Source of the DNA: Aplectana chamaeleonis
Lineage: Eukaryota > Nematoda > Chromadorea > Rhabditida > Cosmocercidae
NCBI GenBank assembly: GCA_029168955.1
Contig: JAPDOI010000215.1
Coordinates: 1,098,001 to 1,162,000, forward strand
Length of the DNA: 64,000 nucleotides
Reading direction: 5' to 3'
The notes under the pieces were generated by a model that was not told the origin of the DNA, did not search any database, and saw only the letters and a list, made by a program, of their open reading frames with translations. This document shows positions 3,276 to 63,319 of the stretch, piece by piece. Within the stretch, counting starts at the first letter, position 1. Each line of letters opens with the position of its first letter. A program made the translations under genes and the position numbers.

Positions 3276-3463
3276 ATCCGACGCATTTATATCCAGGGTT
3301 AAGCAGGGCGTTGTGTAATTTTCCGAAGTCGGGGCGACCCCCTTTCAGCCACCAAGGTTTTTTTTTTTCAAAACTCCACAAATTCTGCAATTACCCCAAG
3401 GTGTAATTTTCGCGCACTTTTTTGCAGAATCTTTTTTTTTTGGATTTGTATTGGAAAGTTTCT

Positions 3464-6400
3464 TCTTCTTCTTTGCAGCCACATTGAGGGTTTTGTCATA
3501 GGTTGAGGAACTGGGCGACCAGTAACGGATTTGTCCATAAGTCCATTACGGTCAGCGTGGTAGGTCTCTCCGGACAGTTGAATAAATGTGCGGTATCGTG
3601 GCCGATGGTACCGCAGTCCGGGCACACATCAGATTTACTGCTGTCAATCCTGCTGACATAAGACATTAGCATTGTAGAGTGACCACAGCGTAATGATGCG
3701 AGCGTGCACCTGGCCCTTCTTCCGAGTTGAGCCTCGGATGTGCAGACTTGGGGCGGCACTACCCCCAATATGGGATTAATGACCGCCTTTTCCAGATGAC
3801 ACCGTACAAACTGAGTATGCTCCTCGCGCAATAGACGGAGTCGTTCTTGCTGTGAGTCGTGCCATCTCTGCAGATTGACTTTGCTGGGAGCATCGGCGAA
3901 TGGCTTTCTGATCTTTCTCTCTCTGACGGGGTTTAGCTTTCTCCAAGAGGGGTGATTTGGTTGTTTGACAATGTTGATGAAAAATTGTTGGGCCTGGAGC
4001 TCACAGTGCTCCCTTACTGGTAATAAGCGGGTCTCAGCATGCAAGTGATCGACCGGGGAACTTCTTGCACACCCGGTGGCGATTTGAAGAGCCGCATTCT
4101 GTATGCGTTGCATCTTAGTCCAAGAGGATTCCGAAACTAGATGCTGCCAAACTGGGGCGCCGTATTCCAGTGCAGGCTGGAGAATAGCCTTATACGTTGT
4201 AATAATGGTTTCTTTGCTGCTACCCCATGTTGTACCGCCCAGGGCTCTAAGCACGTTAAGCTTCGCTTTAACGATAGCCTGCTTCTGTTCCGTGTTCTTA
4301 TGGAATTTGAGCGATGGATCGAGTACGAGTCCGAGAAGTTTTGGGAAGCGGGCGGCAGGCAAACGATCTCCATTCCATACGACATACGGATGTGCGCTGT
4401 GTTCAGATGGGTCCGTTGTGAGTACGGATACCGATGACTTTGACGCAGAAATCTTCAGCATTTTGCGGTCGAAGAAGCTTTTCAGTGCGGTCAAGTACCC
4501 GTTAATCTTAGCGGCGGCCACATTTATGTCCCGATCACGACACAAGACAGTCATATCATCAGCGTAAGCGACCACCTTGATATCTTGGGGTGGGGCGGGC
4601 ATATCTTCGAGGTACAGACTGAAGAGAGCAGGCGACAATACACCGCCCTGTGGGACTCCAGCTGCAATCGGAATGCTGTTTGAGACATGATTCTGGAACA
4701 TCACTCTAGCCCGTCTTCCCTTAGTGAATGCAGCTATCCAGCGCTTTTGCCATGGCGGGATTGATGACTCCAGTCAGTTGTTTGATAAGATACCAAGATT
4801 CACTGTGTCGAAAGCCTTAGTGAGATCCAAGGCAACTGCTACAGTTCTTTCCGGCTTATACGCGTTGAAACCATCAATTGCATAGCTCGTAATTTCTAAC
4901 AAAGCTGTCGTGGTGGAATGCATTTTTCTGAATCCATGCTGAAACACCTGCCTCTCGTTGTGCTCGGCCAGGTCTTTGACGATCAGCTTTTCAGCTACTT
5001 TAGCAAAAAGAAGACAACAAGCTAATGGGCCGATATCCCTTGACTGAAGCTTGGGGCTTGCCAGGCTTGGGCAGCGGAACGACGTTTGCCATCTTCCAAT
5101 TCTGCGGGATAGTACACGACATGAACGAGGAGTTTATCACATCAGTGAGGAGCGGTAGTAAGTCAGTGGGGATCTTCTTCAAGACAGCAGGACATATCCC
5201 ATCAGGACCAATAGCTCTAGAGTTCCGCATTTCCTTTATAATCTTCTCAATTTGCGTCGTAGTAAACGCTTCGGCCGTGCTCATAAGCGGGAGGCGGCAC
5301 AGCTCTCTTACAGTCACTCTATTCTGCGGACCTCGTTTAGCACTGGTGATGAAAAAACTTTTCCCGAGCGCATAAGCGGCTTCCTTTCCTGATTTGAATA
5401 CGCCGTGGTCGAATTCGATAGTGGAGACGGTGGCGGGTGAGCTTTTACCCGAAAGCTTCCGTAAAACCTTCCAAGTAGCTGCACTGTCCGTCTTAAAGTC
5501 CATCTGTCCGGTGAACTTCTCCCACTCTTCTTTCTTGTGTCTGTCCAAATCCTTTTTGATCTCACTGTCAAGCTCAGCAACCACGGGGTCCAGATGATTA
5601 ACCGCTCTCCTCGCATCTCTCGTTCTAATTTTGTCGAGGATTTCCTGTTGACATTTGGATAGAACGTCTTGACGCGACCGATAGGGATAGCCGCATTCAT
5701 GGCCTTGCGGATTGCGTCAGATAGATGGCACTCCTTCTGGTGCACGCTTCCATTCCACGGGTAATCTGCCGATAGGCGAAGCGCAACTTCACTGAACAGG
5801 CGCCAGTCTGCTCGGCCTAAATTAAGATAAGAACGTTGGCGAACACCAGAAAAGGGAGCGAGAGAATTGGATAGATCGATGTGGACAAAGACAGGAACGT
5901 GGTCACTTGGCAGAGTAGTCGAGGTAGACCATGAGCAGCAGCTAGAAAGGTTGGACGAGACAAGAGATATGTCTGGGCTAGAAGATCGGCCGCTGGCAGG
6001 GAGACGAGTGGGCTGATCATCGTTTAGAATGACCAGGTCGCACTCATCTGCCCATTCTTCGACGTCATTTCCTCTAACATCAGGACCGAGAGACGAGCAA
6101 AAGGTGTGAGCGTTGAAATCACCCGCGAAAACGACCGAGGATGAGAGGGAGCAGTCGCTCAGCTGCTTGAGAAGTGGGGTAGGATTGTAAGATGAAGGGC
6201 ATGAAGGTGTAGGTGGAATGTATATGTTGAAAAGAGAAAGGGGTGTTTTTAGGGGAGATGGATTGGGAGGTACTCGAGAGTACCGTCCGTGGGGGTGCTG
6301 GGAATGAGGTGTGAGGGAAGTGAAGATAGAACGAAAGTAGAGACTCCACCGCCGAGAGATGACCTTGGAGCATGGTAAGAAGTATAGCCTGGGATATTGG

Positions 6401-6911
6401 GATGAGGATAGGTAGGGGATGGAGAGAGCTTGGTTTCTTGAACCATGATCACGTCTGGATGGTAAGTACGTGCAAAGAGAGAGAGTTCAGAAAGCTTGGC
6501 ACGAAGGCCGTTTAGATTGATATGCACAATGGAAAGGGGGCGATTTGGAGATAGAGGAATCTGAGATGGAAGGTGAGGAGCATAACACACAACGAAAAGA
6601 TGAGTTATGATGCCTCACAGAACTGAGACCCGAACAGGAGAGATGCACCCACCTTTGGCATCCGAAGCACTGGACGCTGGTATGTCTCCAGTTTACATCC
6701 TCTCCGCACGTGGCGCATTGGTACTTCTGAGCGGGTCCAGGATTCCTCTCCACGCCGGCCCTTTGCAGGAGAATCCGAAGGAGAGTTGCGGCCGGCCAGC
6801 ACCTCTCCCATGACAAAAACCCTCTTTGTGGAGGGGATGACGTCGGTTTGCACGGAGGCGATCTTCTTTCCTCCACACTGCCACGGCACGAACGTACGAC
6901 ATCTCGGCAGC
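3464..6911 (-). mobile_element. Full-length Ingi/Vingi-like LINE, copy A
   Basis: The 3448-bp element lies between copies of GGAAAGTTTCT (3453-3463 and 6912-6922). In element order it has: a 5' HDV-like ribozyme; a leader ending in the 2A-like GVERNPGP (6733-6756); a PHD-type C4HC3 finger (CATC, CFGC, HLSC, CVLC); an APE endonuclease with HINLNGL, QETK (catalytic Glu intact), GDFNAH and SDH; a reverse transcriptase with GPDGI, VPQGGVLSP and YADD (codons at 4557-4568); and a C-terminal knuckle CPDCGTIGHDTAHLFNC. It ends in an (AAG)n tail and no RNase H domain was recognised. Several frameshifts and a stop break the frame (near 5000, 5580, 5800 and 6240), so this copy is dead. The clade call rests on the RT and C-terminal motifs and on domain order. 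Confidence 0.9.
6839..6911 (-). ncRNA. HDV-like self-cleaving ribozyme at the LINE A 5' end
   Basis: Numbering from the first base of the element (6911): P1 pairs nt 1-7 with 29-35, with a terminal G-U pair as in HDV. P2 pairs 9-13 with 69-73. P3 pairs 14-16 with 23-25. The L3 bases AC (17-18) can pair with GU (36-37) as P1.1. P4 is GGAGG/CCTCC (38-42 with 54-58). The candidate catalytic C is nt 62 in GCAAAC. Stem changes in the other copies keep pairing. One departure from the usual fold is three unpaired bases (26-28) between P3 and P1. Inferred from hand folding only. Confidence 0.7.
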
Positions 6912-8866
6912 GGAAAGTTTCTATCTTCTTCACTTCCAAAATTTTTCATTTTTGGTCCAAAATTTTCGCGATCCCTCCTCCTAAGCTTCAATTTTGGGCC
7001 AGAAAACGCGACCGCCGTTGGGAAATTTCACAACCCCGCTTGACCCTGTTTATATCCTATCGGTGGCTGTGATTTGAATTCCCGCGCCCGCCGCGCGGGG
7101 TCGCCGCACCGCCGTCGCGATGCGGCGGCTGCCGGCCTGGCGCGATGCCAAAGAGCTGGATGAACGAAGAAAAACGCAATCTAGGTGGTTCCTGACGACT
7201 AAACGAGACAGTCCGGATGTTTCTTTCCTGGATAATGCTTATCAAAGGGTCTCTCTATAATTCGACCTAATTAGGGTTTTTATCATCGACTGGGTCGGCA
7301 GTATTAGGTCTATTAAGTTTTCTGAGTGCACAAGGTCCACTCATCGAAACTTTAACTCGTTGTTATGAGCTATTTTGAACCTGAATCATAGATGTAGAAG
7401 TAATTCGAAGCATTTAATTGCTGTAAACCTCATATGCACTAAATTCCTTCTTAGTATTGTTTCTATCGACTTACGTACCGTTGTAGCAAGCAAACTTCAG
7501 TATTCCGCTGTATACGTTTGCAGGAATACGATGTGCATGGTAGAGAAATGCGTCTAGTTCTTATCAAAGGATTCGCCACACTCATATCGCACTGCGGAAA
7601 ATCTCCAAGGAACCAAAAATCGCCTCTAAGTTCGAATACTTTTATCGACAACACTTTTCTAATGCTACCTAACATAATCATCCTGTTGCAGATACAGCTG
7701 CATGGCTGATTAGAGTAAGGGTAGGAACTTATGTCTCCCATCAGCCAATCGGCAATGTCTCAGGGTGTAAAGATCTCTGTCGATTGGCCGACGGAAGGAT
7801 TGACCCCGACCGTACTCCTATTTACCCCTATATAGGAATATGAATAGGTATGAGCTCGACAGTGCTTCTTCATCCAGTTTGATACTCAGCTTACCAGAGG
7901 AGATCAAGCATGCCTCCTTCTACCCAAGAAGTGAAGCCGAACCTTTCTAACAGCTTAACCTTCAAGGTTTGGCTTGATCCTCGTTCTCATTCCTCACGCA
8001 AGTTCAGTGGCGTGCCGCAGGCAAGGTTCGTACGCATGATACGCTCCGCATTGCTGCGCAAAAGTCACTTTGCTCCATTGCGTCCGTGCCGCGCGAACGC
8101 TGTTCTTCCCTTGATCGTTGTCTCTTCTCTTACTCCGCACACGCACGCGAGACAGGGAAATTTTTCTTGAAAAAAAAAATCGGGAAGAATAGCCTTGCCA
8201 GCACACTCTTCCTCACTATATCATCCTTGCGTTGACTAGGATTGGTAAGGAAGTGCTTTTGGAAGCACTGTATTCCAGCGTAACAAGATTTTGAAGAAGG
8301 GCTCTGAAGGTAATTTTGCAGTTCTCAATTATCGGTGAGGTTGTGTGACGAACAGAGCAGTCGATGGTAGTGGTCGACATCTTGGGGTGTTAACTTCGTG
8401 CTAAAACTTGGCGGTCGTCTCGCTTTGAAAACCCATTTTCTACCACCCCATTCAGCTGTATACAGCGAAAGAAGTTCGCATGGGAATCGAAGCGATAATT
8501 TACTCCAAAATAACGCTCACAAGTGTCGTTGAGGTCCGCCAACGGGCAAATGTTATGGAGTGGAGTCTAGACGTTGTGCACTCAGAAACTATATCAGACC
8601 TAATATTGGCGACCCAGTGGATAATCAAAACTCAATTATGTCCAATAATAAGCAGTAGCTTGTTTACTAACGTCATCCAGGTGGAAAACGGCCGAATTAT
8701 GTCGATTAGCCGTCAAAAACCAACCCAAAGCGCGTTTTTCTTCGCTCATTCAGTTCTTTGGCATCGCGCCAGGCCGGCAGCCGCCGCGTCGCGACGACAG
8801 TGCGGCGACTGCCCTCGGCGCCCGCGGGAGTTCAGATGACAGCCACCGATAGGATATAAATGCGTT

Positions 8867-9480
8867 GCGATCACTGTATCATGCGAAAGCTGTCGGCTGT
8901 CGGCAGCTGGACACCCCTGCAGAAATGTACAACCGTCAAGTCCGATGTGTCCGCAGCTACGGCCCACGTGCACCATACCATACGCGCATTTTTCAAAATA
9001 CGCAGTCACTGGATAGGAAGTTGTTCTCAAGGATTTCTAGCGCAGAAGAGTTTTTTTTACAACGGATCACTATGAATTACTCTTGTGTCAACGTTTTAGG
9101 GAGGAAATGCTCAGATTATGACACATCTAACCTTTTAGTCAGCAAAGTGACTTTTTTTTATCCTGAAGCGTTCAATACAGAAATTTGAGGCGCAGAGCCA
9201 AACAATGTAATCCATTTTTTAGACCTTGAAAATGTTAGGGTGAAATGTCTTATATATTCAAGTACCAATCTTCAATGAGGGCCGATCGTAGAAACCCGAA
9301 CTGGACTGCGAATCAGGAGAAATCCAGATTGGACGGTGCAGCCTTTGGCTGCACCGTCCGGCAGGGGAGGAAAACCCCGGGTGTGGGCTAATTTTTTACC
9401 CTAGCGGCTCCGGGAGGTGCGAATCAAGAGAAATACAGATTGGACGGTGCAGCTTTGTACTTAATAACGGTTTTAAACAC
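8867..9480. repeat. Unassigned sequence with one minisatellite-family unit at 9320-9465
   Basis: Bases 9325-9370 carry GGACGGTGCAGCC, a short spacer and its complement, followed by GGGGAGG and CCCCGGGTGTGGGC. These are the same words as the 113-bp array at 60.2 kb, with a second partial unit to 9465. Bases 8867-9300 show no recognised feature. Confidence 0.55.
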
Positions 9481-13734: not shown

Positions 13735-13745
13735 GATCACAACAT

Positions 13746-16700
13746 CTTCTTCTTCTTCGCAGCCACATAGAGGGTTTTGTCATAGGCGGAGGAACTGGGC
13801 GACAAGTAGTGGATTCGTCCATAGGTCCATTGGTGTCAGCGTGGTAGGTCTCTCCGAACAGTTGAATAAATGTGCGGTATCATGGCCGACGATACCGCAG
13901 TCCGGGCACACATCAGATTTGCTGCTGTCAATCTTGCTGACATAAGACATTAGCATTGTAGAGTGACCACAGCGTAATGATGCGAGCGTGCATCTCGCCC
14001 TTCTTCCGAGTTGAGACTCTGAGGTGCAGACGGGGGGCGGTATATCTCCTAGTATAGGATTTATGGCCACCTTCACAAGATGACACCGTACGAACTTGGT
14101 GTGCTCCTCGCGCAAAAGACGGAGTCGTTCTTGCTGTGAGTCGTGCCATCTTTGCAAATTGACTTTGTTTGGAGCATCGGCGAATGGCTTTCTTATACTT
14201 CTCTCTCTCTCACGGGGTTTAACACTCTCCACGACGGGTGATTTGGTTGCTTTATAATGTTAATGCGGAATTGCTGGGCCTGGAGCTGACAGTGCTCCTT
14301 CACTGGTAATAGACGGGTCTCAGCATGCAGGTGCTCGATTGGGGAACTCCTTGCACATCCGGTGGCGATACGGAGAGCAGCATTTTGTACTCGTTGCATC
14401 CTTGTCCAGGAGGATTCCGAGACGAGATGCTGCCAAACCGGTGCGGCGTACTCCAGGGCGGGCTGCAGAATTGCCTTATACGTTGTGAGTATAGTCTCCT
14501 TGCTGCTACCCCACGAAGTGCCGCCCAGGGCCCTGAGAACGTTGAGCTTAGCTTTAACGACTGCCTGCTTCTGCTCGGTATTCTTATGAAACTTGAGTGA
14601 CGGATCGAGCACAAGACCGAGCAGCTTGGAAAGCGAGCAGCAGGCAAACGGTCTCCATCCCACACGACATCCGGATGAGCGCTGTGCTCGGATGGGTCCG
14701 TCGTGAGAACGGACACTGACGACTTGGCTGCAGAGATACTTAGCATCTTGCGGTCGAAAAAGCTCTTCAGTGTGATCAGGTACTCGTTGATCTTATTGGC
14801 GGCCACCTGTAAGTCCCGATCTCGACACATGATTGTTATGTCATCGGCATACGCGACGACCCTGATGTCCTGTGGAGGCTCAGGCATATCTTCGAGGTAC
14901 AGATTGAAGAGGGCTGGCGATAGAACTCCGCCCTGAGGGACTCCAGCTGCCATAGGAATACTGTTGGAGACATGGTTCTGAAACATGACTCTTGCCCGCC
15001 GACCTTTAATAAAGGCCGATATCCAGCGCTTCTGCCAAGATGGTATTGACGACTCCAGAATGTTGCTTGACAGGACTCCAAGGTTAACCGTATCAAATGC
15101 CTTGGTGAGATCCAACGCAACAGCTACAGTTCTCAATGGCTTGTTAAAGTTGAACCCGTCGATAGCATAGCTGGTAATTTCTAGCAACGCCGTAGTTGTG
15201 GAATGTAGCCTCCTGAACCCATGTTGAAATAACTGCTTCTCGTTGTGCTCCGCTAGACCCTTGACAATGAGCTTTTCGGCCACCTTGGCGAAAGGTGACA
15301 TCAAGCTAATGGGACGATATCCCTTTACTGATGACTGAGGTTTGCCAGGCTTGGGCAACGGGATGACGTTGGCTGTCTTCCAGTTTTGCGGAATAGTGCA
15401 AGAGCTAAACGAAGTGTTAATCATATCAACGATGAGCGGAAGGATCTCAGTCGGGAGTTTCTTCAGTACAGCAGGACAAATGCCGTCCGGACCGACAGCT
15501 TTGGAGTTCCGCATGTCCTTTATAATCTTCTCTATTTGCGCCACAGTGAACGCATCGGCCGTGCTCATGAGCGGGAGGCGGCACAGCTCTCTTACTGTCA
15601 CTCTATTTTGCGGACCTCGCCTTGTACTCGTGACGAAGAAACTTTTACCGAGAGAGTAGGCGGCTTCCTTTCCTGACTTGAAAACGTTATTACCGAACTC
15701 AATAGTGGAGATGGTGGCTGGCGAGCTCTTTCCCGATAGTTTCCGAAGCACCTTCCAAGTAGCTCCACTGTCCGTCTTGAAATTCAACTGTTCTGTGAAT
15801 TTTTCCCACTGTTCTTTCTTGTGCTGGTCGAGATCTTTTCTGATCTCACCATCCAGCTGAGCGACGACAGGGTCTAGATGATCAACTGCTCTTCTGGCAT
15901 CTCTAGTCCTGATTTTCTGAAGAATTTCTCTGGTGACGTTTGGATAGAACGTCTTAACTCGGCCAACAGGGATAGCCGCCTTCATGGCCCTGCGAATTGC
16001 ATCAGATAAGTGATGCTCCTTCTGGTGCACATTGCCATTCCACGGGTAATCAGCCGCTAGGCGTAGCGCAACCTCACTGAACAGGCACCAGTCTGCTTGG
16101 CCTAAATTGAGATAAGAACGTTGACGAACACCAGAATAAGGAGCAAGAGAATTTGAGAGATCGATGTGCACAAAGACGGGAACATGATCACTAGACAATG
16201 TTGTTGAGGTAGACCATGAGCACGCGTTGGAAAGGTTGGACGAGATAAGAGTTATGTCTGGGCTAGAAGATCGACCGTTGGCAGGGAGACGAGTGGGCTG
16301 ATCATCGTTTAAGATGACCAGGTCGCACTCCTCAGCCCATGCTTCGACTTCTTCTCCTCTAGCATCAGAACCAAGGGACGAGCAGAAGGTGTGGGCATTA
16401 AAGTCGCCCGCGAAAACAACTGATGATGAGAGGGAATAATCGTTGAGTTGTTTGAGAAGAGGAATGGGATTGTAGGAGGAGGGGCATGAGGTGGTAGGGG
16501 GAATATATATATGTTGAAAAGAGAAAGGGGTGTTTTAAGAGGGAGATGGATTGGAAGGTACTCGAGAGTACCATCCGTGGGGGTGTTTGGTATGAGGTGG
16601 GAGGGGAGAGAGGATAAAACAAAGGTTGAAACTCCTCCGCCAAGAGCTGACCTTGGAGCATGGAAGGCAGTGTAGCCCGGGATATTAGGATGAGGATAGG

Positions 16701-17198
16701 TAGGGGATGGAGAGAGCTTGGTTTTTTGAACCATGATCACGTCTGGATGGTAAGTACGTGCGAAGAGAGAGAGCTCAGAAAGTTTAGTACGAAGGCCGTT
16801 GAGATTGATATGTACAATGGAAAGGGGGCGATTTGAGGAAGAGGAATCAGAGTTGGTAGGTGAAGAGCATAAAACACAGCGAAAAGCAGAGTTATAATGC
16901 CTCACAGAACTGAGACTTGAACAGGAGAGATGCACCCACCTTTGGCATCCGAAGCACTGGACGCTGGTATGTCTCCTGGTAACATCCTTGCCGCACGTGG
17001 CGCATAGGTACTTCTGAGCGGGTCCAGGATTCCTCTCCACGCCGGCCCTTTGCAGGAGAATCCGAAGGAGAGCTGCGGCCGGCCAGCACCTCTCCCATGA
17101 CAAAAACCCTCTTCGCGGAGGGGGTGACGTCGGTTTGCATAGAGGTGATCTTCTTTCCTCCACACTGCCACGGCGTGAACGTACGACATCTCGGCAGC
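13746..17198 (-). mobile_element. Full-length Ingi/Vingi-like LINE, copy B (best preserved)
   Basis: The 3453-bp element lies between perfect copies of GATCACAACAT (13735-13745 and 17199-17209). The order is ribozyme, 2A-like GVERNPGP (17020-17043), PHD finger, APE endonuclease, RT with YADD (14840-14851) and C-terminal CPDCGIVGHDTAHLFNC, with the (AAG)n tail at 13746. The frame is broken at three small indels: an AT microsatellite near 16507, a one-base loss near 14632, and a CT-run near 14210. Apart from these it is open along the whole length. The APE motif reads QKTK where copy A has QETK, a change of the catalytic glutamate codon at about 16725. So the element looks recently inserted but inactive. 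Flanks are unrelated repeat DNA. Confidence 0.92.
17126..17198 (-). ncRNA. HDV-like ribozyme, copy B
   Basis: This is the same 73-nt fold as in copy A. In P3, GUG has become ACG, turning two wobble pairs into Watson-Crick pairs. In P4 the last base C has become U, leaving a G-U pair. The GCAAAC catalytic segment is unchanged. Confidence 0.7.
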
Positions 17199-17257
17199 GA
17201 TCACAACATATCACAAGGTAGCCGACTTGTGCGCAAAACTCAGATGCAGATGCAGAG

Positions 17258-34621: not shown

Positions 34622-35267
34622 GGGATTTCAAGGAAAAATGTGAATCTGGATTGCTGGCCGCAAAATCAGGGTTCTGCACGAGGTTAGAAGAAGGCCAATT
34701 TTCCTAAGACCCCTCCCCCAAGAGCGCGACTTGGTCAATTTTTTGGTGATTTTCTCGGACCCTTCCCACATTTTGATTTGACCTGTTTTTTTGTTAACCC
34801 ATTCACGACCACGCCTTATTTTCGGTGACTGCACGTTCGGAGCGCGTGCAGTACTGCGCTACCGTATAACGTGTCCCACCGGTGAGACACCCGAGCTCGA
34901 ACGGCACGCCACCAAATATCGATTTTCGTTTTTCATGTTCAGAGTGGAGCTAACAATCATGTAAACATTGTGCCGAAATTTCCGCTCATGGAACCCTTTC
35001 TATCATGAAAAACAACTGCCTGAAGTCACGACAGAGTCAAGCGGGAATATTATTTTGCCACCACCGCTCCGGTGATATTCACAAGGAGATCCTTTGAATG
35101 TGATTCAGAAACCTGATATCTAATTTTAGATTGTGTCGCGTAGATTTGGTCGTGGTGGGTAGAAGAGTGAAAATTGAAGAAAATCGGTGTTCCGGGGTCA
35201 TGGTAGGTGTACCCATGGTGATGGCACGTTTCCAGGTGAACAAAACGAAATTCCAACTCGAGTTTTT
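34622..35267. other. Unassigned sequence
   Basis: No repeat boundary or exon was recognised. The minus-strand frame from LINE C continues to about 35050 (LETCHHHGYTYHDPG and beyond) but resembles no LINE domain I know. Confidence 0.3.
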
Positions 35268-35937
35268 TTCCTGATTTGAAGACGCTGTTATCGAACTCTA
35301 TGGTAGAGTTCGAGGAGGGGGCGCATTTTCCAGATATTTTCCTCAATACTTTCCACGCAGTTGTTCCGTCGGTTTTAAAATTCAACCTTTCAGTGAACTT
35401 CTCCGAACTGTCTTTCTTGTGCTTGTCCAGATCCTTTTTTGTCTCTTCATCCAGCTTAGCCACTTCAGGGTCCAAATGATTCTCAGCTCTCTTTTCATCT
35501 CTTGTCCTGATCTTCTGTGGAATCTCCCTGGTGACATTAGGGCAGAAACTTTTCACACGTCCTTCAGGTATGGCCGCTTTTGTAGCCTTCCGGATGGCGT
35601 CAGATATGTGACGCTCTTTCTGGTGCACATCAGGGCTGTGCGTAACTGAATTTTGTAATTTCGTAAATCGTAAATCGTAATTTTTGAAATTCCTCGTAAT
35701 TCGTAAATCGTAATTCGTAAATCGTAACTGATAATGAGTAATAAGCCCACACATGACCCAAACCTCATTCGATTTGGAAACACCGTAGCATTTCAATGAT
35801 GAGGTGTCTCCATATCGAAGGAGGTTGGAGGTTGGGTTTCATAGTGACATTTTTAGAGCAGCACTTGAATAAATATTCAGTACACACACGCGGGGTAGGA
35901 ACGACTTTAATAGACAAAATGGAAACTCTAAGTTTAT

Positions 35938-37505: not shown

Positions 37506-39010
37506 AATAATAAGTTTGGGTCCGTCAGAGTGAGAAGGGGAGCGATTGGTCATTCCTAAAGCTCGTTATCAACAATTATAGTTCTCCATGACTGACCTAC
37601 TGCTGACTTCTACCGGCCGGGCACGCACGGGTACGGGTTCACCGAAAATTAAAAATTTGAAGAGTAATCAAATATTAGGGGCGTGTCAAATTTGAAAGTG
37701 TTGAAGTTGTGTCGTATTGAAAGTGTTAAATTTATATTTGTACTAGACCGCCGATTGGAATTGCTCATTTAACCGCGTTTTAACGTTTTATTACGATTTG
37801 TTACGATTCGTTACGATTTTGGTCCCAAATTTCGTAAATCGTAAAAAAATTGCCAAAAACGCCCGTAATTCGTAAATCGTAAACCGTAATTCGTAATTAC
37901 GCACAGCCCTGGTGCACATCGCCATTCCATGGATACTCAGCTGCCTGGCGGAGCGCAACCTCTCTGAACAGGACCCAGTCAGCAAGGCCTAAATTGAGAT
38001 AAGAACGTTGACGAATACCAGTATAAGGGGCAAGAGAGTTTGAGAAATCAATATGGAGAAAGACGGGAATGTGGTCGCTGGAAAGAGTTGTGGAAGTGGA
38101 CCATGTGCAAGAACTAGAAAGATTGGATGAAACGAGGGAGATGTCCGGGCTAGAAGGTCGGCCGTAGGAAGGGAGACGAGTAGGCCGATCATCGTTGAGG
38201 ATAACCAGATCACACTCCTCAGCCCATTCCTTGACGTCTTCCCCTCTGGCGTCGGACGCAAGAGCAGAACAGAACGTGTGAGCATTGAAGTCACCTGCAA
38301 AGACAGCTGATGGGGAGAGAGAGCAGTCATGCAACTGCTTAAGAAGAGGTATGGGGTTGTAGGTTGGGGGACAAGAAGTGGTAGGAGGGATGCAAATATT
38401 AAATAGAGATAGTGGAGTTTTAAGAGGGAGGTGAACGGGAACGAAAAAAAGAGTACCGTCCTTAGGAACATTTGGAATTAGATGAGAAGGTAAGTTAGAA
38501 AGCACAAACGTAGAAACTCCGCCTCCAAGAGCTGTCCTTGGGATGTGATAGGCAGTGTAGCCTGGAATGTTTGGTTGGGGATAAGTGGTAGAGGGAGAGA
38601 GTTTAGTTTCTTAAACCATGATAACATCCGGATGATGAGTACGTGCGAAGAGTGAGAGTTCAGACAATTTGGTACGAAGGCCGTTAAGATTTATATGTAC
38701 AATAGAGAGGGGGCGGTTGGTGAATGAGGAATCAGAGTTGCTGGGGGCGGAGCACAGAACACAACGGAAGGATGAGTCGCGATGCCTCACAGAACTAAGA
38801 CCTGAACAGGAGAAGAGCACCCACCTTTGGCATCCAAAGCATTGGACGCTTGTTCCATTCCAGTTGACTTTCTTGTTGCAGGTGGCACACTGATACTTCT
38901 GCACAGGTCCAGGATTCCTCTCGACGCCAGCCCTTTGTAGTAGAATCTTCAGGAGAGCTGGGGCCAGCCAGCGACTCTCCCATGACAAAAACCCTCTCGG
39001 TGGAGGGAGT

Positions 39011-39083
39011 GATGTCGGTTTGCACGAAGGTGATGTTTTTTCCTCCACACTGCCACGGCACGAACGTACGACATCTCGGCAGC
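39011..39083 (-). ncRNA. HDV-like ribozyme, copy C
   Basis: Same fold as copies A and B. P2' reads GACATC instead of GACGTC, turning a U-G pair into U-A. P4' reads CCTTC, keeping pairing through a G-U. The P4 loop differs and the GCAAAC segment is unchanged. Confidence 0.65.
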
Positions 39084-39664
39084 AGGATACCATTATGTTT
39101 CATTAAAAAGGTGATTGATATCATAGTTAGCCCGCTTGCATACATTTTCAACCTGAGTTTTATGCGTGGAGACGTTCCGCGTAGATGGCGTACTTCCTTT
39201 GTTGGGCCGGGATCATACTTCCCGCGACCAGCGACAATGCACATCAGGCATATCGATTTTCAGTCGATATGGATGGTAAACATTGCGTTGCGTCGCTGGA
39301 AATATGATTCCGGCCTTACTCCTATACCAAAAAAGAAGAAGCCGTTTTCTGATCCCAACAATTGCCGGCCTGTCAGTATGACATCTATTTTTGCAAGGCT
39401 CTTTGGAAAAGAATTGAAGAAAAAAATTATGGCTCATCTAGAAAAGCACTCCATCATCTCGGAGCACCAGCATGGTTTCCAAAAAGGAGAAATCCACAAT
39501 TTCGGCGATGCTGTAGTCGCTTGACGACTGGAATCGTGCGCTGGCCAAGAATATTGGTGTAGATGTTGTTTATCTCGATTTTTCCCGGGCGTTCGACAGA
39601 GTTTCCCATCGTAAATCAGTAAACAAACTAGAAACAATGGGTATTCATCCGCGTGTACTGCGCT

Positions 39665-39871
39665 TCTCTGGGCCAAATTCCGGTCCGCAATTGCGTCTCG
39701 ACTTGCGGCCGCACGCGCTTGAGTCATTCGGGTTTCCAGCGCCAAAGCCGATTCGATATGGCTTTTTTATACAGGCTGCGGAGCTGGAAACCCTTCCGAC
39801 TCGAAAGCGCGCGGCCGCAAAGCGTGTCGAGATACGACTGCAGACCGGAATTCGGCCCAGAGAAGCACTGT
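39665..39871. mobile_element. MITE inside the CR1-like LINE (CTTCTCTGGGCC ends)
   Basis: CTTCTCTGGGCCAAATTCC and GGAATTCGGCCCAGAGAAG are inverted. ACTG flanks both sides. Removing it rejoins the CR1 frame around WIRAFL. Confidence 0.7.
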
Positions 39872-40419
39872 AGTGGCTTGGATTCGTGCTTTTCTAACGG
39901 GCAGTACTTTCAGATTTCGGCTTAACAGTACGTTCTCCTCTTCCCTGACCGTCCTTAGTGGTTTTCCCCAGAGTGGAGTGCTTTCACCTATTCTCTTAAA
40001 AATTTATACGTATGAACTTCCCTCGCTTATATCCTTGAACAACTTTGGCTGTTCGGCATCCGCTGATAACTTTAAATTGTATAATCCTATTTTGACCATG
40101 GGTGATTCGGAGTATTTGCAGAAAGCTCTAAATGATGTACCCAAATGGCCGAATGAATGGAAATTGTCTCTTTCCAGTGAAAAACTAAACTTATGAAGCG
40201 TGCTAAGAAAAAAGTTAGTACCTTCTATACAATTGACGGTATGCAGTTGAGCGAGGTCAGCGAGATTAAGGACCTTGGTTTTCTTATCAAGGGTGATCTT
40301 AATTTCGATGATCACTGCCTCCAGGTCGCGTCCATGGCTAAAAGGATGATGCACAGCGCGTTTAGGGCACTTTCAACTACCAATGCAAATGTCCTAACTG
40401 GAAGTATAAGACGTACATA

Positions 40420-42455
40420 TGATCTAGTTCCGCAATAGCGTTCAGTCCGCAAAGTCTCACTATCACAATCGTGGAAGCGAAGCGGTTGTTTTGAGAATGA
40501 TTTCTTCATCAAATCGGGAAAGGAGGCTGCAACTGCTCTCGGAAATAATTGTTTCACAACTCAGGCTAAGAGAGGGAAACAGAATCGAGTGACTGTAAGA
40601 GAGATCTGTAAGTTGCCACTCATGAATGAAGCAGAAGCAGTGACGCCCGCGCAGATTGAAAAGGTGGTAAGAGAGATGCGCAACTCGAAGGCTGTAGGGC
40701 CGGATGGCATTAGTCCAGCGGTCTTGAAGAAACTGCCGACTGAGATTATGCCAATCCTGGCTGACGTCATCAACACATCCTTTCGCACGTGCATCCTACC
40801 CCAAGACTGGAAAATGGCAAGCGCCATTCCGTTGCCCAAGCCAGGTAAATCGCCCTCAACGGCTAAGGGATACAGGCCAATAAGTCTTTTATTACCAACT
40901 GTCAAGGTCGCTGAGAAACTGGTCGTGAAAGAGCTTGCCGAGCATAATAACAAACAGCAGCACCAACATGGTTTCCGCAAAGTTCACTCCACTACCACGG
41001 CGCTGCTGGAGATTGCGAGCTATGTCTTGGATGGCTTCAACGCCTATAAACCTCAACGCACTGTTGGTGTAGCCCTGGACCTCACGAAAGCTTTTGATTC
41101 TGTCAACTCGGGCATACTGTCTGAGAAGCTTTTGAGGTCCACCATCCCGCCTTGGCAGAAACGATGGATAACCGCACTCATCAAAGGGCGCCGAGCAAAT
41201 GTACTGTTCCAGGGACATGTCTCTAATAGCGTCCCTATCGCTGCCGGTGTCCCTCAAGGAGGAGTCATATCGCCTGCTCTGTTCAGCCTTTACCTTGAAG
41301 ATTTGCCCGTCCCCCCAAGTGACATTAAAGTCGTTGCGTACGCGGATGACATCACCATCTTGGGCCGGGACAGAGACATTAATGTAGCTGCACGCAAGAT
41401 CAATAGCTACCTCATCGTTCTGGAGCTTCCTCGATGATATGATGCTCACTGTCTCTGCCGCTAAATAATCTGTATCAGTTTTCTCCACTGACCCTAAGGA
41501 ACACTGCACTCACCCCAATGTGAATTGGGAAGACGCTCGTCTGCCTGCCGCACGTTTCCCTAAGCTGCTCGGCCTAGTATTGGATCCTTCGTTGAGGTTC
41601 CACGAGAATACTGAGCAGAAACAGGCTACAGTGAAAGCAAAGCTCAACGTCCTACGAGCTCTGGGAGGAACGTCGTGGGGAAGTAGCAAGGAGACAATTT
41701 TGACCACGTACAAGGCAATCTCGCAGCCGGCATTGGAGTACGCTGCACCGGTATGGCAGCACATGATATCGGATTCATCGTGGACAAAGATGCAGCGAGT
41801 CCAAAGTGCTGCTCTTCGGATTGCCACAGGGTGTGCTAAAAGCACCCCAGTGGAACATCTTCATGCTGAAGTAAGGATCATGAATCCCGTGAGAGAGAGA
41901 CATATCAGAAGGCCTTTTGCAAATGCTCCCGAGAAAGTCAATATACAAAGATGGACAGACTCCCAACTGGATCGTCTGCGTCTTTTACGTGCGGAGCACA
42001 CCAAGTTCGTCAGGGATCACTTGAGTAGGTAGCCGTCAATCCCATATTGGAGGTCGTACCACCTGTAGTCAGCAACACCGAGATGGAACTTGGTAGGCGG
42101 GCTAGAAGTACCCTTGCCTCGTTACGCTGCGGTCATTCCCCGATGCTGATGTCATACTTGCACAAGATCGATCGCAGTAAGCCTGACGAGTGCCCGGACT
42201 GTGGTAGCCGTGGCCACACAACTTAGCACCTATTTGATTGCCCAAAGAGGCCGACCACTCTGACAACAATGGATTTGTGGACGAATCCGGTTTCAGTCGC
42301 CCGTTTCTTGAACCTTTGACTAAAACCTTCCTGCGGCTGCAAAGAAGAAGAGAAGAAGAAGATTTCTTCATTTTCATAGTTGAATTTTCAAAAACAACCG
42401 CTTCGCTTCTACGATTGTGATAATGAGGACTGAATGCCATTGCGGAACTGAACTA
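40420..42455. mobile_element. TA-flanked TIR element hosting LINE copy D
   Basis: The arms of about 75 bp (AGTTCCGCAAT, TTCAGTCC, TATCACAATCGT, GAAGCGAAGCGGTTGTTTT) are inverted at 40426-40493 and 42382-42450. Removing the element and one TA rejoins the CR1 frame as KTYIRPRMDYG. Confidence 0.75.
40510..42360 (+). mobile_element. Ingi/Vingi-like LINE, copy D: 5'-truncated, RT half
   Basis: It is flanked by perfect GATTTCTTCAT (40499-40509 and 42361-42371) and ends in AAGAAGAAGAGAAGAAGAA. It begins in the linker at KSGKEAATALG and continues with GPDGISPAVLKKLPTE, LPKPGKSPS, HQHGFRKVHSTTTALLE, VPQGGVISPALF and VVAYADDITIL. It is open for about 280 codons, then damaged (41437, 42030 and later), ending DECPDCGSRGH and a TGC(AAG)n tail. 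It represents a subfamily diverged from A and B. Confidence 0.9.
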
Positions 42456-54316: not shown

Positions 54317-55055
54317 GTGAAATTATCTAACTGTTTTGCTTTGCTACGGATCAGTATGATTTGGAAATGAAACATTTGTGAGAAACTCGTTAAAAGAAGT
54401 GAAAAGTTTTATGCTACTGATTTGGCATGGGAATAAACTCGAAAGAAGCGCTAAAAACTCAGTGAAATGATTCATCGTTGATTTGGCTGTGCACTTGTTC
54501 ACTAAACAACAAAAATTGAGTGTGAGATTGAAAAACCAAATCACGCACTTGTTACTGAGCATTTATGTATCCGTGTGACAGCAGTTCTCTTATTTGACGA
54601 CATTCGCATAAACACACTACGTGATGTTATTTCCACTTTATTAATTGATAGTCAATCGGAAGCGAACGCGTCAAATAATTTAGTAATGCATGAAAATCAA
54701 TATTTCTGAATGATTGAGGTGGGAGACACAACATAATTTTGCAAGGACCTGTAGTGTGTCTATGCGAATGTTGTCAACTAAGAGAGTTGCAGTCACACGA
54801 ATAAATATGTGTGCTTAGTAAGATGTGCGTGATTTGGTTTTTCAATCTCACACTTAATTTTTGTTGTTTAGTAAACAAGTGCACAGCCAAATCAACGATG
54901 AATCATTTCACTGAGTTTTTAGCGCTTCTTTCGAGTTTATTCCCATGCCAAATCAGTAGCATAAGACATTTCACTTCTTTTAACGAGTTTCTCACAAATG
55001 TTTCATTTCCAAATCATACTAATCCGTAGCAAAGCAAAACAGTTAGATAATTCAC
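54317..55055. repeat. Foldback element: ~310-bp inverted arms
   Basis: GTGAAATTATCTAACTG at the left and CAGTTAGATAATTCAC at the right begin arms about 95% identical over ~310 bp, with a ~125-bp AT-rich centre. The two mirror-image 72-codon frames (54344-54562 minus and 54811-55029 plus) are the same sequence read from each arm. The transcript would be a long hairpin. It lies directly upstream of a CR1 3' end. Confidence 0.9.
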
Positions 55056-55620: not shown

Positions 55621-57441
55621 ACGCATTTATATCCTATCGGCGGCTGTCATTTGAATTCCCGCGCCCGCCGCGCGGGGTCGCCGCACCGCCGTCGCGATGC
55701 GGCGGCTGCCGGCCTGGCGCGATGCCGAAGAGCAGGATGAACGAAGAGAAACGCAATCTAGGTGGTTCTTGACGGCTAAACGAGACAGTCCGGATATTTC
55801 CTTCCCGGATAATGCTTATCAAAGGGTCTCCTATTATTCGACCTAATTAAGGTTTTGATCATCAACTGGGTCGGCAGTATTCGGTCTGTTAAGTTTTCTG
55901 AGTGCACAAGGCCCACTCATCGAAACTTTAACTCGTTGTTATGAGCTATTTTGAACCTGAATCATAGCTGTAGAAGTAATTTGAAGCATTTAATTGCTGT
56001 AAACCTCATATGCACTAAATTCCTTCTTAGTATTGTTTCTAGCGAACTACGTACCGTTGTATCAAGCAAACTTCAGTATTCCGTTGTATACGTTTTCAGG
56101 AATACGATGTGCATGGTAGAGAAATGCGTCTAGTTCTTATCAAAGGATTCGTCACACTCATATCGCACTGCGGAAAATCTCCAAGGAACCAAAAATCGCC
56201 TCTAAGTTCGAATACTTTTATCGACAACACTTTTCTAATGCTACCTAACATAATCATCCTGTTGCAGATACAGCTGCATGGCTGATTAGAGTAAGGGTAG
56301 GAACTTAACTATGTCTCCCATCAGCCAATCGGCATTGTCTCAGGGGTGTAAAGATCTCTGTTGATTGGCTGACGGAAGGACTGACTCCGTCCGTACTCCT
56401 ATCTACCCCTTTATAGGAATATGAATAAGTATGAGCACGATAGTGCTTCTTCATCCAGTTTGTTACTCAGCTTATCAGAAGAGATCAAGCATGCCTCCTT
56501 CTACACGAAAAAGTGAAGCCGAATCTTTCTAACAGCTTAACCTTCAAGGTTTGGCTTGATCCACGTTCTTTCGTAACGCAAGTTCATTGGCGTGCCGCAG
56601 GCAAGGTTCGTACGCATTATACGCTCCGCATTGCTGCACAAAAGTCACTTTGCTCCATTGCGTCCGTGCCGCGCGAACGCTGTTCTTCCCTTGATCGTTC
56701 TCTTATCTTACTCCGCACACGCACGCACGCGAGACAGGGAAATTTTTCTTGAAAAAAAAAATCGGGAAGAATAGCCTTACCAGCACTCTCTCCCTCACTA
56801 TATCATCCTTGCGTTGGCAAAGATTGGTAAGGAAGTGCCTTTGGAAGCACTGTATTCCAGCGTAACAAGATTTTGAAGAAGGGCCCTGAAGGTAATTTTG
56901 CAGTTCTCAATTATCGGTGAGGTAGTGTGACGAACAGAGCAGTCGATGATAGTGGTCGACATCTAGGGGTGTTAATTTCGTGCTAAAACTTGGCGGTCGT
57001 CTCGCTTTGAAAACCCATTTTCTACCACCCCATTTAGCTGTATACAGCGAAAGAAAATCGCATGGGAATCGAAGCGATAATTTACTCCAAAATAACGCTC
57101 ACAAGTGTCGTTGAGGTCCGCCAACGGCTAAAAGTTATGGAGTGTAGACGTTGTGCACTCAGAAAATATATCAGACCTAATATTGGCGACCCAGTGGATA
57201 ATCAAACCTCAATTAGGTCCAATAATAAGCAGTAGCTTGTTTACTAACGTCATCCAGGTGTAAAACGCCGAATTATGTCGATTAGCCGTCAAAAACCAAC
57301 CCAAAGCGCATTTTCTTCGCTCATCCAGTTCTTTGGCATCGCGCCAGGCCGGCAGCCGCCGCGTCGCGACGACATTGCGGCGACTGCGCGCGGCGGGCGC
57401 GGGAATTCAAATGACAGCCGCCGATAGGATATAAGTGCGTT
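55621..57441. mobile_element. 1.8-kb TIR transposon, copy 2 (uninterrupted)
   Basis: AACGCATTTATATCCTATCGG to CCGATAGGATATAAGTGCGTT, with GC-rich TIRs of about 145 bp. It is co-linear with 3281-8866. Small indels between the copies destroy any shared long frame, which argues against a coding function. No convincing TSD was found. Confidence 0.85.
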
Positions 57442-58107
57442 GGAATCGCTGTGCAACGACGTATAATATGCCCTCTTCCCAATTCCTGCATGCATTGCTC
57501 GCTATTCGAACGCGACGACCCACCGAAGAATTGCGCGTAAGGTGGGCGTGTCTTGTACGTGGATGCACACAAGACAATTTATTTCACGGCCAATCGTTTT
57601 GTGTCTTGTCTCCATGGCATTAGCCACAGACGCCTCGGTCATCGGGACTCACGCGTAAAATAAAATGCGTGTGGTGTAGGCGCCCATAACACTCGCGCCT
57701 TTACGCGCAATTCGCTAAAATTTCACCGACTCACCGCCTCTCGGATTTACGTTTGTTAGAGTCCGAATTCAGATCAGAAAGTGCTTTGCGGCCAGTTTTT
57801 CTTACAGAAGATCGTTTTAAATACGGAAACCAGTTGTCTTGTAAATACACTCAAGTAATACAACTGGAATAGTTTATTTTTTCATGTGGTGCGGAATCCA
57901 CTCATATATTCACCTGTGATATATTCTTTATACTTTATAAAGTCATTTTTTAATATTGATGATGACCAACGTGGGATATATATCCTTTAGAGGCACAAAG
58001 CTGAGCAACTCATGTGATCTGGTGGACAATAACACTGTGATAAGGAATTTGTGATACGAAACCGATGTACTGTCATTTGCGTTAGAGGGTTAAGAACATA
58101 TGCTGAA

Positions 58108-59869: not shown

Positions 59870-61690
59870 AACGATTGAAATATTCGTTTTTAACCATGGT
59901 GCTGCAATTTTTAGCCAATATGCATGTCGCCGCGTTAGGCGCTATTCATACTCCTCAACGCACGCGCGTGCCGTGCCTTTGTAGTATGACTAGACGAAAA
60001 ATACCGTGCGGTACAAATTGCCACGACAGCCGTGAATTACAGTGTGTGGTGCAATTACACAATCCACACCGAAAACCACGTCTGTTATAAAATTGCAACC
60101 AAACTCTCAGCAAACATAAACACAGAAAACACAGAAACGGTTCTTCGGCGATGGGGAAGGGATTGCCGGTACAACCGCGGAAGCAAGAAAAAGGATATCA
60201 GGTTGAAATCACTTTAAACCCAGAAGGGACGGTGCAGCCTTCGGCTGGAGACCGTAGGAGAAGGGAGGTAATCCCCGGGTGTGGGCAGATTTTAGTGTTG
60301 GCTGCGATTCGGAGTGGTTTGAATCATTTGAAACCCAGAATGGACGGTGCAGCCTTCGGCTGCACCGTAGGGCAAGGGAGGTAATCCCCGGATGTGGGCA
60401 GTTTTTAGTGTTGGTTGGCTGCAGGGCAAGGGAGGTAACCCCGGGTGTGGGCAGATTTTAGTGTTGGCTGCAATTCGGAAAGGTTTGAATCATTTGAAAC
60501 CAAGAATGGACTGTGCAGCCTTCGGCTGCACCGTAGGGCAAGGGAGGTAATCCCTGGGTGTGGGCAGATTTTAGTGTTGGCTGCAATTCGGAAAGGTTTG
60601 AATCATTTGAAACCCAGAATGGACGGTGCAGCCGAAGCCTTCGGCTGCACCGCAGGGCAAGGGAGGTAACCCCCGGGTGTGGCAGATTCTAGCGTTGGCT
60701 GCAATTCGGAGTGATTTGAATCATTTGAAACCCAGAATGAACGGTGCAGCCTTCGGCTGCACCGTAGGGCAAGGGAGGTGATCTCCGGGTGTGAGCAGTT
60801 TTTAGTGTTGGCTGCAGGGCAAGGGAGCTAACCCCCGGGTGTGGGCAGATTTTATTGTTGGCTGCAATTCGGAAAGGTTTGAATCATTTGAAATCCAGAA
60901 TGGAAGGTGCAGCCTTCGGCTGCACCGCAGGGCAAGGGAGGTAACCCCCGGGTGTGGGCAAATTTGAATAATGTTATACAGCCCACCCCCCCCATTCGGC
61001 TCTCGTAAACAAAGTTAGTGATATCCAATTGATAAAGTGTAGGGTATAAAAGAAGTGGAGAGCGGTGGGTCTTCATTCTTGCACCGTCCTCCTCCAGGGT
61101 TCAGCAGTTGAGGCTCCGCACGGGCAAGAAGTTAGGAAAACAGCACCACCGGTGCTCAAGATATGGCAAATTTGTTGTGAAAACTTAGAAAAATTTAGAG
61201 CCAATTGGAGGGAGCCGATTGGGGGGGGGGTGGATAAGAGCACCCGGCAGATTTTAGGGCTGGCTGCAATTCGGAAAGGTTTGAATCATTTGAAAGCCAG
61301 AATGGACGGTGCAGCCGAAGCCTTCGGCTGCACCGCAGGGCAAGGGAGGTAACCCCCGGGTGTGGGCAGATTTTAGTGCTGGCTGTAATTCGGAAAGGTT
61401 TGAATCATTTGAAAGCCAGAATGGACGGTGCAGCCGAAGCCTTCGGCTGCACCGCAGGGTAAGGGAGGTAACCCCCGGGTGTGGGCAGATTTTAGTGCTG
61501 GCTGCAATTCGGAAAGGTTTGAATCATTTGAAACCCAGAATGGACGGTGCAGCCTTCGGCTGCACCGTAGGGCAAGGAGGTAATCCCCGGGTGTGGGCAG
61601 ATTTTGTGCTGGCTGCAATGCGACGTGGTTCTAATCATTTGAAACCAAAAATCGGCGAGGGAGGAACTTCTGGTATGGGCTGATCTTACT
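59870..61690 (+). repeat. Minisatellite-bearing dispersed repeat, right copy
   Basis: The segment 59990-60300 is the reverse complement of parts of 840-1440. It leads into the 113-bp array and ends near 61690. Confidence 0.7.
60205..61620 (+). repeat. 113-119-bp tandem minisatellite array
   Basis: Units contain GGACGGTGCAGCC then (GAAG)CCTTCGGCTGCACCG, GCAAGGGAGGTAA and CCCCGGGTGTGGGCAGATTT. Spacing of the core is 113 bp, or 119 bp where the 6-bp GAAGCC insert is present (for example 61310, 61429, 61548). Two ~50-bp partial units stretch some intervals. A non-repeat segment at about 60965-61245 splits the array. Confidence 0.9.
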
Positions 61691-62714: not shown

Positions 62715-62787
62715 GCTGCCGAGATGTCGTACGTTCGTGCCGTGGCAGTGTGGAGGAAAGAAGATCACCTCCGTGCAAACCGACGTC
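62715..62787 (+). ncRNA. HDV-like ribozyme, copy E
   Basis: Identical to copy A over the paired regions (P1 with terminal G-U, P2, P3, P4, GCAAAC), starting exactly at the first base after the TSD. Confidence 0.7.
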
Positions 62788-63319
62788 AATCCCTCCGCGG
62801 AGAGGGTTTTTGTCATGGGAGAGGTGCGGGCTGGCTGCAGCTCTCCTGAGGATTCTTCTACAAATGGCCGGCGTCGAAAGGAATCCAGGACCCGCGAAGA
62901 AGAAGAAGTACCCATGTGCCACATACGGAAACGCCTCCGTCTCTTGCGCGCGGAGCATACCCGATTCGTGAACGAACACTTGAGCAGAGTTGCCATAAAC
63001 CCCATCCTGGGAGTCGCACCTCCAAAGGTCTCCGAGACAGAGATGGAACTTGGCAGGCGTGCCAGGTGCACCCTTGCATCGTTACGCTGTGGACACTCCC
63101 CCATGCTTATGTCATACTTGCATAGGATTGACAACAGCAAACCTGACGAGTGTCCTGATTGCGGTAGTCAAGGGCATACTACTGCGCACCTGTTCAATTG
63201 CCCGAAAAGACCGACTACATTGACGACAATGGATCTGTGGACGAACCCAGTGCTAGTGGCCGAGTTTCTGAACCTATGACAGAACCCCTCTCTGTGGCTG
63301 CAAAGAAGAAGAAGAAGAA
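62715..63319 (+). mobile_element. Non-autonomous, internally deleted LINE (copy E), 605 bp
   Basis: It is flanked by perfect GGAATATTCGG (62704-62714 and 63320-63330). It keeps the 5' ribozyme, the leader and 2A-like motif (GVERNPGP, 62870-62893), jumps near 62930 to the C-terminal region (LRLLRAEHTRFVNEHLSRVA ... CPDCGSQGHTTAHLFNC ... VAEFLNL) and ends in TGC(AAG)n. PHD, APE and RT are gone. A 202-codon frame crosses the deletion, but it starts outside the element and reads the 5' part out of the 2A frame. The layout parallels the short RIME/NARTc derivatives of trypanosome ingi/L1Tc. Confidence 0.9.

Follow-up and report, generated by a model that had tools for sequence, protein, structure and literature searches.

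The first 73 nt of a LINE in the nematode Aplectana chamaeleonis very probably form an HDV-like self-cleaving ribozyme, which would free the LINE RNA from read-through transcripts and set its 5' end. This is indicated by a fold that is conserved across two element families, by an exact junction between the folded sequence and the flanking DNA and by core nucleotides that both families share. An earlier note on the same DNA had proposed an HDV-like ribozyme at the exact 5' end of the element and, as far as sequence can tell, that proposal is well supported by covariation with a second family and by the exact junction in many copies. Here we describe the fold, its position and its variation, and weigh the explanations that compete with self-cleavage.

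LINE copies in the window

The stretch that was analysed, hereafter the window, comprises 64,000 nucleotides of contig JAPDOI010000215.1 (assembly GCA_029168955.1). It contains the following complete or partial copies of the element:

3464..6911, minus strand: LINE copy A, about 3.45 kb from ribozyme to GAA tail, with TSD AGAAACTTTCC at 6912-6922 and 3453-3463
13746..17198, minus strand: LINE copy B, with TSD ATGTTGTGATC at 17199-17209 and 13735-13745
37909..39083, minus strand: copy C, 5' part, interrupted, probably continuing at 35267-35632
62715..63317, plus strand: copy E, 0.6 kb, having both ends but an internal deletion, TSD AAGGAATATTCGG
40509..42358, plus strand: copy D, 3' part only, of a more divergent subfamily (about 69% at the DNA level)

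No 3' end was seen for copy C. The TSDs of copies A, B and E all abut nt 1, with GAA-repeat tails at the opposite end. Their length, previously given as 11 bp throughout, is 11 bp in A and B and 13 bp in E, where two of the 13 bases are shared with the GAA tail. The reverse transcriptase (RT) of copy D is 71% identical to that of copy B over 312 residues. Just upstream of copy D, at 39291-40178 on the plus strand, lie fragments of a more distant RT with 32-35% identity to B.

Other repeats in the window include two 1.83 kb copies of DNA-transposon-like appearance (7049-8877 and 55626-57452), 94% alike and with imperfect inverted ends of about 300 bp (78-80%), as well as a 732-bp stretch of the fold-back type (54321-55052) that matches its own reverse complement at 85%. 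Tandem arrays are found at 60200-61652, with units of about 113-166 bp holding GCAGCCTTCGGCTGC, and at 8-457, with a 114-bp unit bearing GCAGCC.

Predicted fold of the first 73 nt

The window contains the following predicted ribozymes:

6839..6911, minus strand: HDV-like ribozyme of copy A, nt 1 being position 6911 and the predicted cleavage lying between 6912 and 6911
17126..17198, minus strand: ribozyme of copy B, P1.1 consisting of A-U and C-G
39011..39083, minus strand: ribozyme of copy C, with U11-A71 where the others have U-G
62715..62787, plus strand: ribozyme of the short copy E
6850..6850, minus strand: C62 of copy A, the predicted catalytic cytosine and first C of CAAAC in J4/2, invariant in ten aligned rows

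These first 73 nt are common to copies A, B, C and E, with 9 of 73 columns variable. With copy A read on the minus strand, the nested fold described before was recovered in all four as an HDV-like double pseudoknot, standard pairs being present in 92 of 92 pair cells, with the exception that P1 has six pairs rather than seven. It joins nt 1-6 to 30-35 and ends in the terminal wobble G1-U35, whereas the seventh pair, G7-U29, is only possible and competes with A17-U29 of P3. J1/2 is GA, P2 is formed by nt 9-15 and 67-73 (7 bp), P3 by nt 17-19 and 27-29 with an L3 of 7 nt, and P4 by nt 38-42 and 54-58. The order P1, P2, P3, P1.1, P4, with P3' directly before P1', is that of HDV-like ribozymes and is seen in both families. 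In the HDV-like consensus the catalytic C of J4/2 is followed by N-A-A before P2'. J4/2 is here GUGCAAAC and holds C62-AAAC, and CAAAC is indeed found at the position formerly named for the catalytic C in A, B, C and E; the role of C62 as catalytic cytosine is one that we assign by analogy.

All stem changes between the copies keep pairing, as had been claimed, and the substitution of U-A for U-G in P2 of copy C was seen at U11-A71. The two changes of copy B that had been read as P3 wobbles were misplaced: they concern nt 23 and 24, of which the wobbles with nt 36-37 become A-U and C-G, and belong to the putative P1.1. In HDV-like ribozymes P1.1 consists of one or two pairs that join L3 to the bases following P1'. 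This register, 23-24 with 36-37, pairs in all ten aligned rows. The register that we would expect here by comparison with HDV is nt 21-22 with 36-37, and in A-type copies it offers C22-G36 only, plus a U-U mismatch. Among copies A, B, C and E no pair has changed on both sides, and the window by itself is therefore only suggestive.

Exact 5' junction across the genome

The genome that was searched has 1.04 Gb in 2087 contigs. Three queries representing 5' ends yielded 947, 2194 and 1662 first-look candidates, of which 40, 40 and 40 were scored, and a query with the RT of subfamily D yielded 41,155 first-look candidates, of which 138 were scored. The A-type sample consists of 38 of the 40 scored places, fetched with enough downstream sequence. 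Since these 38 copies were found by means of their ribozyme, ribozyme identity is no evidence and only the junction counts; likewise, the CC at -2/-1 in most of them derives from the flank included in the query.

A perfect duplication of 10-13 bp that ends at nt -1 and is repeated after the GAA tail was found in 27 of the 38 testable A-type copies. The remaining 11 comprise two with a repeat that lacks the GAA tail and nine with no repeat. Two pairs of loci, L028/L029 and L030/L038, share flanks, which leaves 25 distinct insertion sites among the 27. L030 is a short, internally deleted copy of 669 bp that has kept ribozyme and 3' tail and has flank and TSD as in the full-length L038; it may represent a deletion after insertion or an assembly variant rather than a separate jump. 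The 30 C-type loci, one of which is copy C itself, had too little downstream sequence for the TSD test.

Starts that had not been targeted were listed from the fetched flanks and the window. Six of these 11 are at nt 1, namely window copies A, B, C and E, the copy of a second family in L063 (see below) and one in L078, most of them already known; the other five, among them the continuation of copy C, lie elsewhere. The D-type sample consists of four copies from the 138 RT matches, chosen for long open frames (1042-1155 aa), a choice that favours complete copies. Three of the four start at nt 1 and keep 94.5, 95.9 and 97.3% of the A ribozyme, and the fourth is cut near nt 84.

Site-specific insertion as in R2 was ruled out because the flanks differ between copies; the TSDs vary too, and Exo_endo_phos domains are present. 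A chimeric nature of L047, considered on account of its 36% RT, was rejected since this is a frameshifted copy with 80% at the DNA level.

A second family and covariation

A distant relative of the window LINE, here called family F, was met by accident in locus L063. The first 1270 nt of this F element form a single open frame of 423 codons that is 47-51% identical to the window copies (47.8% over 379 aligned residues in the case of copy C). Forty F copies, from 1662 first-look candidates, were scored in the genome at 97-100%, and eleven were read. By eye, 11 of 11 have flanks that differ up to nt 1 and a common sequence from there on. This sequence starts with GGATCC, or with GGATCG in L083 and GGATAC in L085, and what precedes it in L088 is a piece of a further F copy.

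The 5' end of F consists of 80 nt with an A-like fold: P1 is GGAUCC/GGAUCU, P2 GAUGCUC/GGGCAUC, P3 ACC/GGU, P4 GAGUC/GACUC and J4/2 AUCAAAC, P4 being displaced by one nucleotide relative to A-type. A first P3 register for F was dropped as it rested on a private mutation of L063. In the F majority sequence all 18 of 18 core pairs (P1, P2, P3 and P1.1) hold. Six pairs differ from A on both sides (2-34, 3-33, 4-32, 13-69, 15-67 and 19-27), and three more on one side. When random letters were drawn at the changed positions of F, all 18 pairs were kept in 44 of 200,000 trials; when the changes were placed at random, in 3 of 200,000.

The covariation alignment combined the four A-type copies with six of the eleven F copies, giving ten rows. 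Left out of the count were L083, L085, L086, L087 and L088, of which L083 and L085 each break one P1 pair. Pairing in the ten rows amounts to 98.8% of 162 cells. The covariation score was reached by 0 of 500 shuffles and exceeds that of all six slid registers, which pair at 51% or less. The number of pairs with two-sided change (matched by 264 of 500 shuffles) and the number of pair types (487 of 500) are no better than in the shuffles, since in effect there are only two lineages. The covariation is in essence one contrast, A-type versus F, and not a series of independent events in many lineages. A third family with other P1 letters was not found by a pattern that covered 8 of 64 possible triplets.

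No row of the ten departs from G1, U20, C22, G25, U35, G36, C62 and A63-A65. The CAAAC of J4/2 is kept in 10 of the 11 F copies, L063 having CAAAA. Stem-breaking changes occur in four of the eleven (L063, L083, L085 and L090), as expected of dead copies.

This contrast bears on the possibility that the 73 nt are conserved as an internal promoter, or as another DNA signal that sets the start at nt 1, the fold being incidental. Conservation in itself would suit such a signal: majority letters of A-type and C-type agree at 93% in nt 1-73, at 83% in nt 74-200 and at 86% in nt 201-500, a comparison in which the A-type copies had been found by nt 1-73. In L1Tc of trypanosomatids, the excerpted account has the same 77 nt acting as promoter and as ribozyme (PMC8256844), and the two functions may coexist here as well. 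However, a DNA signal would keep letters and not pairing, whereas the six pairs that changed on both sides between A and F have kept pairing, and we regard a DNA signal with an incidental fold as improbable.

Proteins of the element and the translation start

The following features concern the coding part of copy A:

6900..6902, minus strand: AUG at nt 10-12, within the 5' strand of P2 and at the same nucleotides in family F
6816..6822, minus strand: heptamer G GGU UUU at nt 90-96, in the AUG frame, candidate -1 frameshift site
6733..6783, minus strand: 2A-like stretch LLRILLQRAGVERNPGP, in the -1 frame

Judged by its predicted proteins, the element is a LINE of the AP-endonuclease type that has a 2A-like peptide and a PHD-like finger. 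With 1134 codons, the open frame of L025 is the longest; it encodes an AP-type endonuclease and a reverse transcriptase. Pfam at E up to 1 identified RVT_1, Exo_endo_phos and Exo_endo_phos_2, with PHD below its cut-off, and gave no RNase H match in this 1134-aa frame. RNase H after the RT is present in Ingi and absent in Vingi. Of the 72 rows examined, 67 have the 2A-like motif close to the start, and the F element has a motif of its own, GIERNPGP. The motif GxExNPGP is reported as active in duck hepatitis A virus, according to an excerpt of the source (PMC6249498).

Both families retain the AUG at nt 10-12, despite the changes that the surrounding P1, P2 and P3 have undergone. In the F copy of L063, which has no heptamer, this AUG shares the frame of 2A and endonuclease (EN) and directly opens the 2A-PHD-EN frame. 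In A-type copies the 2A-EN-RT frame is at -1 relative to the ribozyme AUG, and among the 67 readable rows of A- and C-type copies together, 61 have the 2A at -1. GGGTTTT, a canonical slippery heptamer, occurs near nt 90 in 69 of 72 A- and C-type rows, among which L049 and copy C are the same place, and lies in the AUG frame in 66 of these 69. A hairpin GGAGAG/CUCUCC follows 6 nt past the heptamer in the four window copies, to which folding was confined. A -1 frameshift at G GGU UUU would be the simplest reading; the alternative is a non-AUG start in the -1 frame, which is open from the first nucleotide in 65 of 67 rows. Tentatively, the ribozyme might double as translation start; translation of the uncapped self-cleaved RNA would then begin nine bases from the cut end, with frameshifting in one lineage.

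Between ribozyme and slippery site, at nt 76-93 (about 6819-6836, minus strand), a small hairpin CCCUC/GAGGG with variable loop is followed by a U run. It was read by eye in seven copies (A, B, C, E, L091, L093 and L094) and might modulate the ribozyme or frameshifting.

Alternatively, the structure could be real but have lost its ability to cleave, acting instead as a signal in the RNA that serves the LINE protein or the entry of ribosomes. We deem this very unlikely. U20 and G25 in L3, CNAA in J4/2 and the terminal G-U of P1, which we take to serve catalysis rather than folding, are invariant in the ten rows, and the fold starts exactly at the first base of the element. On the other hand, the AUG sits inside P2; for the 5' UTR of L1Tc a switch between ribozyme and a later translation structure has been suggested; and certain ribozymes of the L1Tc clade were inactive in vitro (both in excerpts of PMC4035085 and PMC8256844).

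Descriptor searches and Rfam

A strict descriptor, written after both families had been seen, demanded a P2 of at least 7 bp, an L3 starting with U and CNAA in J4/2. On both strands of the window it matches four sites, which are the four nt 1 positions, and it has no match in 20 random windows from a first-order Markov model. In 94 fetched loci (298 kb) it matches only A-type ribozymes (78 loci) and F-type ribozymes (7 of 11 F loci). A looser descriptor that predates the discovery of F matches 11 window sites over both strands, four of them the copies. A second loose descriptor matches nine, again including the four copies, and its five other sites compare with a random mean of 1.2 and maximum of 5. 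At z -0.06, the fold without pseudoknots has an unremarkable free energy.

That a 73-nt stretch with many possible pairs was shared by descent among the copies and folds by chance is hardly credible: the lack of two-sided changes in the four window copies, the average energy and the matches of loose descriptors at unrelated places would fit, but the compensatory changes of family F, the coincidence with the element's end and the strict descriptor's 0 in 20 random windows contradict it.

Rfam gave no match for the whole window at curated cut-offs. The earlier note had named a search with an HDV-like covariance model over genomic copies as a check; while covariation is present between A-type and F, no Rfam HDV model matches any of the copies scanned (copy A, copy B and two F copies) at E up to 10. 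The sole match, ES173 on the other strand of copy B (E 8.6, 12.1 bits against a cut-off of 90), is attributed to chance. Rfam HDV models may miss divergent members.

Proposed mechanism

An HDV-like ribozyme at nt 1-73 would operate as follows, in the manner of R2 and L1Tc. Transcription would begin either in the flanking DNA or at an internal promoter of the element and read through. The RNA would then fold into P1-P4 and, as P1 is formed only by nucleotides of the element, no flanking sequence would be needed. With C62 as general acid the chain would be cut before nt 1, giving a 5'-OH RNA that begins at nt 1 and retains the whole ribozyme. This RNA would presumably be the template and be reverse transcribed to its end, so that each new full-length copy would have the ribozyme with an exact 5' junction.

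Relation to known elements and significance

R2 inserts site-specifically into rDNA and has a restriction-like endonuclease, whereas the window LINE has varied insertion sites, TSDs of 10-13 bp and an AP-type endonuclease. L1Tc has a 2A peptide near its N terminus; compared with L1Tc, the window LINE has an AUG inside P2 and, in A-type copies, a candidate frameshift before the 2A.

The papers cited in this section were drawn on in excerpt. They agree with the earlier remark that HDV-like ribozymes are known at the 5' ends of R2 and L1Tc (PMC3774820, PMC4035085, PMC8256844). The R2 ribozyme of insects and other animals is HDV-like and located at the 5' end, like that of the window LINE, with a P1 of 6-7 bp, a P2 of at least 5 bp and a variable P4 (PMC3774820). 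In L1Tc a 77-nt ribozyme region lies at the 5' end of LINEs and of short derivatives, with cleavage just upstream (PMC4035085). This system, L1TcRz/Pr77 of L1Tc and ingi-clade elements of trypanosomatids, resembles the window LINE in its 5'-end ribozyme, short derivatives and AP endonuclease; L1Tc differs by its RNase H (PMC4035085), for which the window LINE gave no match, having a PHD-like finger. Among nematode elements, an HDV-like ribozyme has been proposed for R4 of Ascaris lumbricoides, and Dong is a further element with such a ribozyme (PMC3774820). Genomic HDV-like ribozymes of nematodes have also been described in Caenorhabditis japonica and Pristionchus pacificus (Webb et al. 2009, cited in PMC8256844), and are likened to the present one by description only. 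A literature search, with most subscription journals outside its reach, found no paper on a Vingi retrotransposon with a ribozyme.

As HDV-like ribozymes at the tips of LINEs are known from R2, R4, Dong and L1Tc, the kind is already known, and what is added to it is the element, the covarying family F and the AUG inside P2. A LINE lineage with AP endonuclease, non-site-specific insertion and very many copies (41,155 first-look RT candidates, of which 138 were scored) would thereby join the ribozyme-tipped retrotransposons. A-type and F constitute a covarying pair of families that is directly testable at the bench. The finding also bears on how an uncapped, ribozyme-ended RNA gets translated, and it offers a test of whether L1Tc and the lineage of the window LINE inherited ribozyme and 2A from a common ancestor. 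Should the RT prove to group with Ingi/L1Tc as well, the layout of ribozyme plus 2A would be an ancient design shared with the LINEs of trypanosomes.
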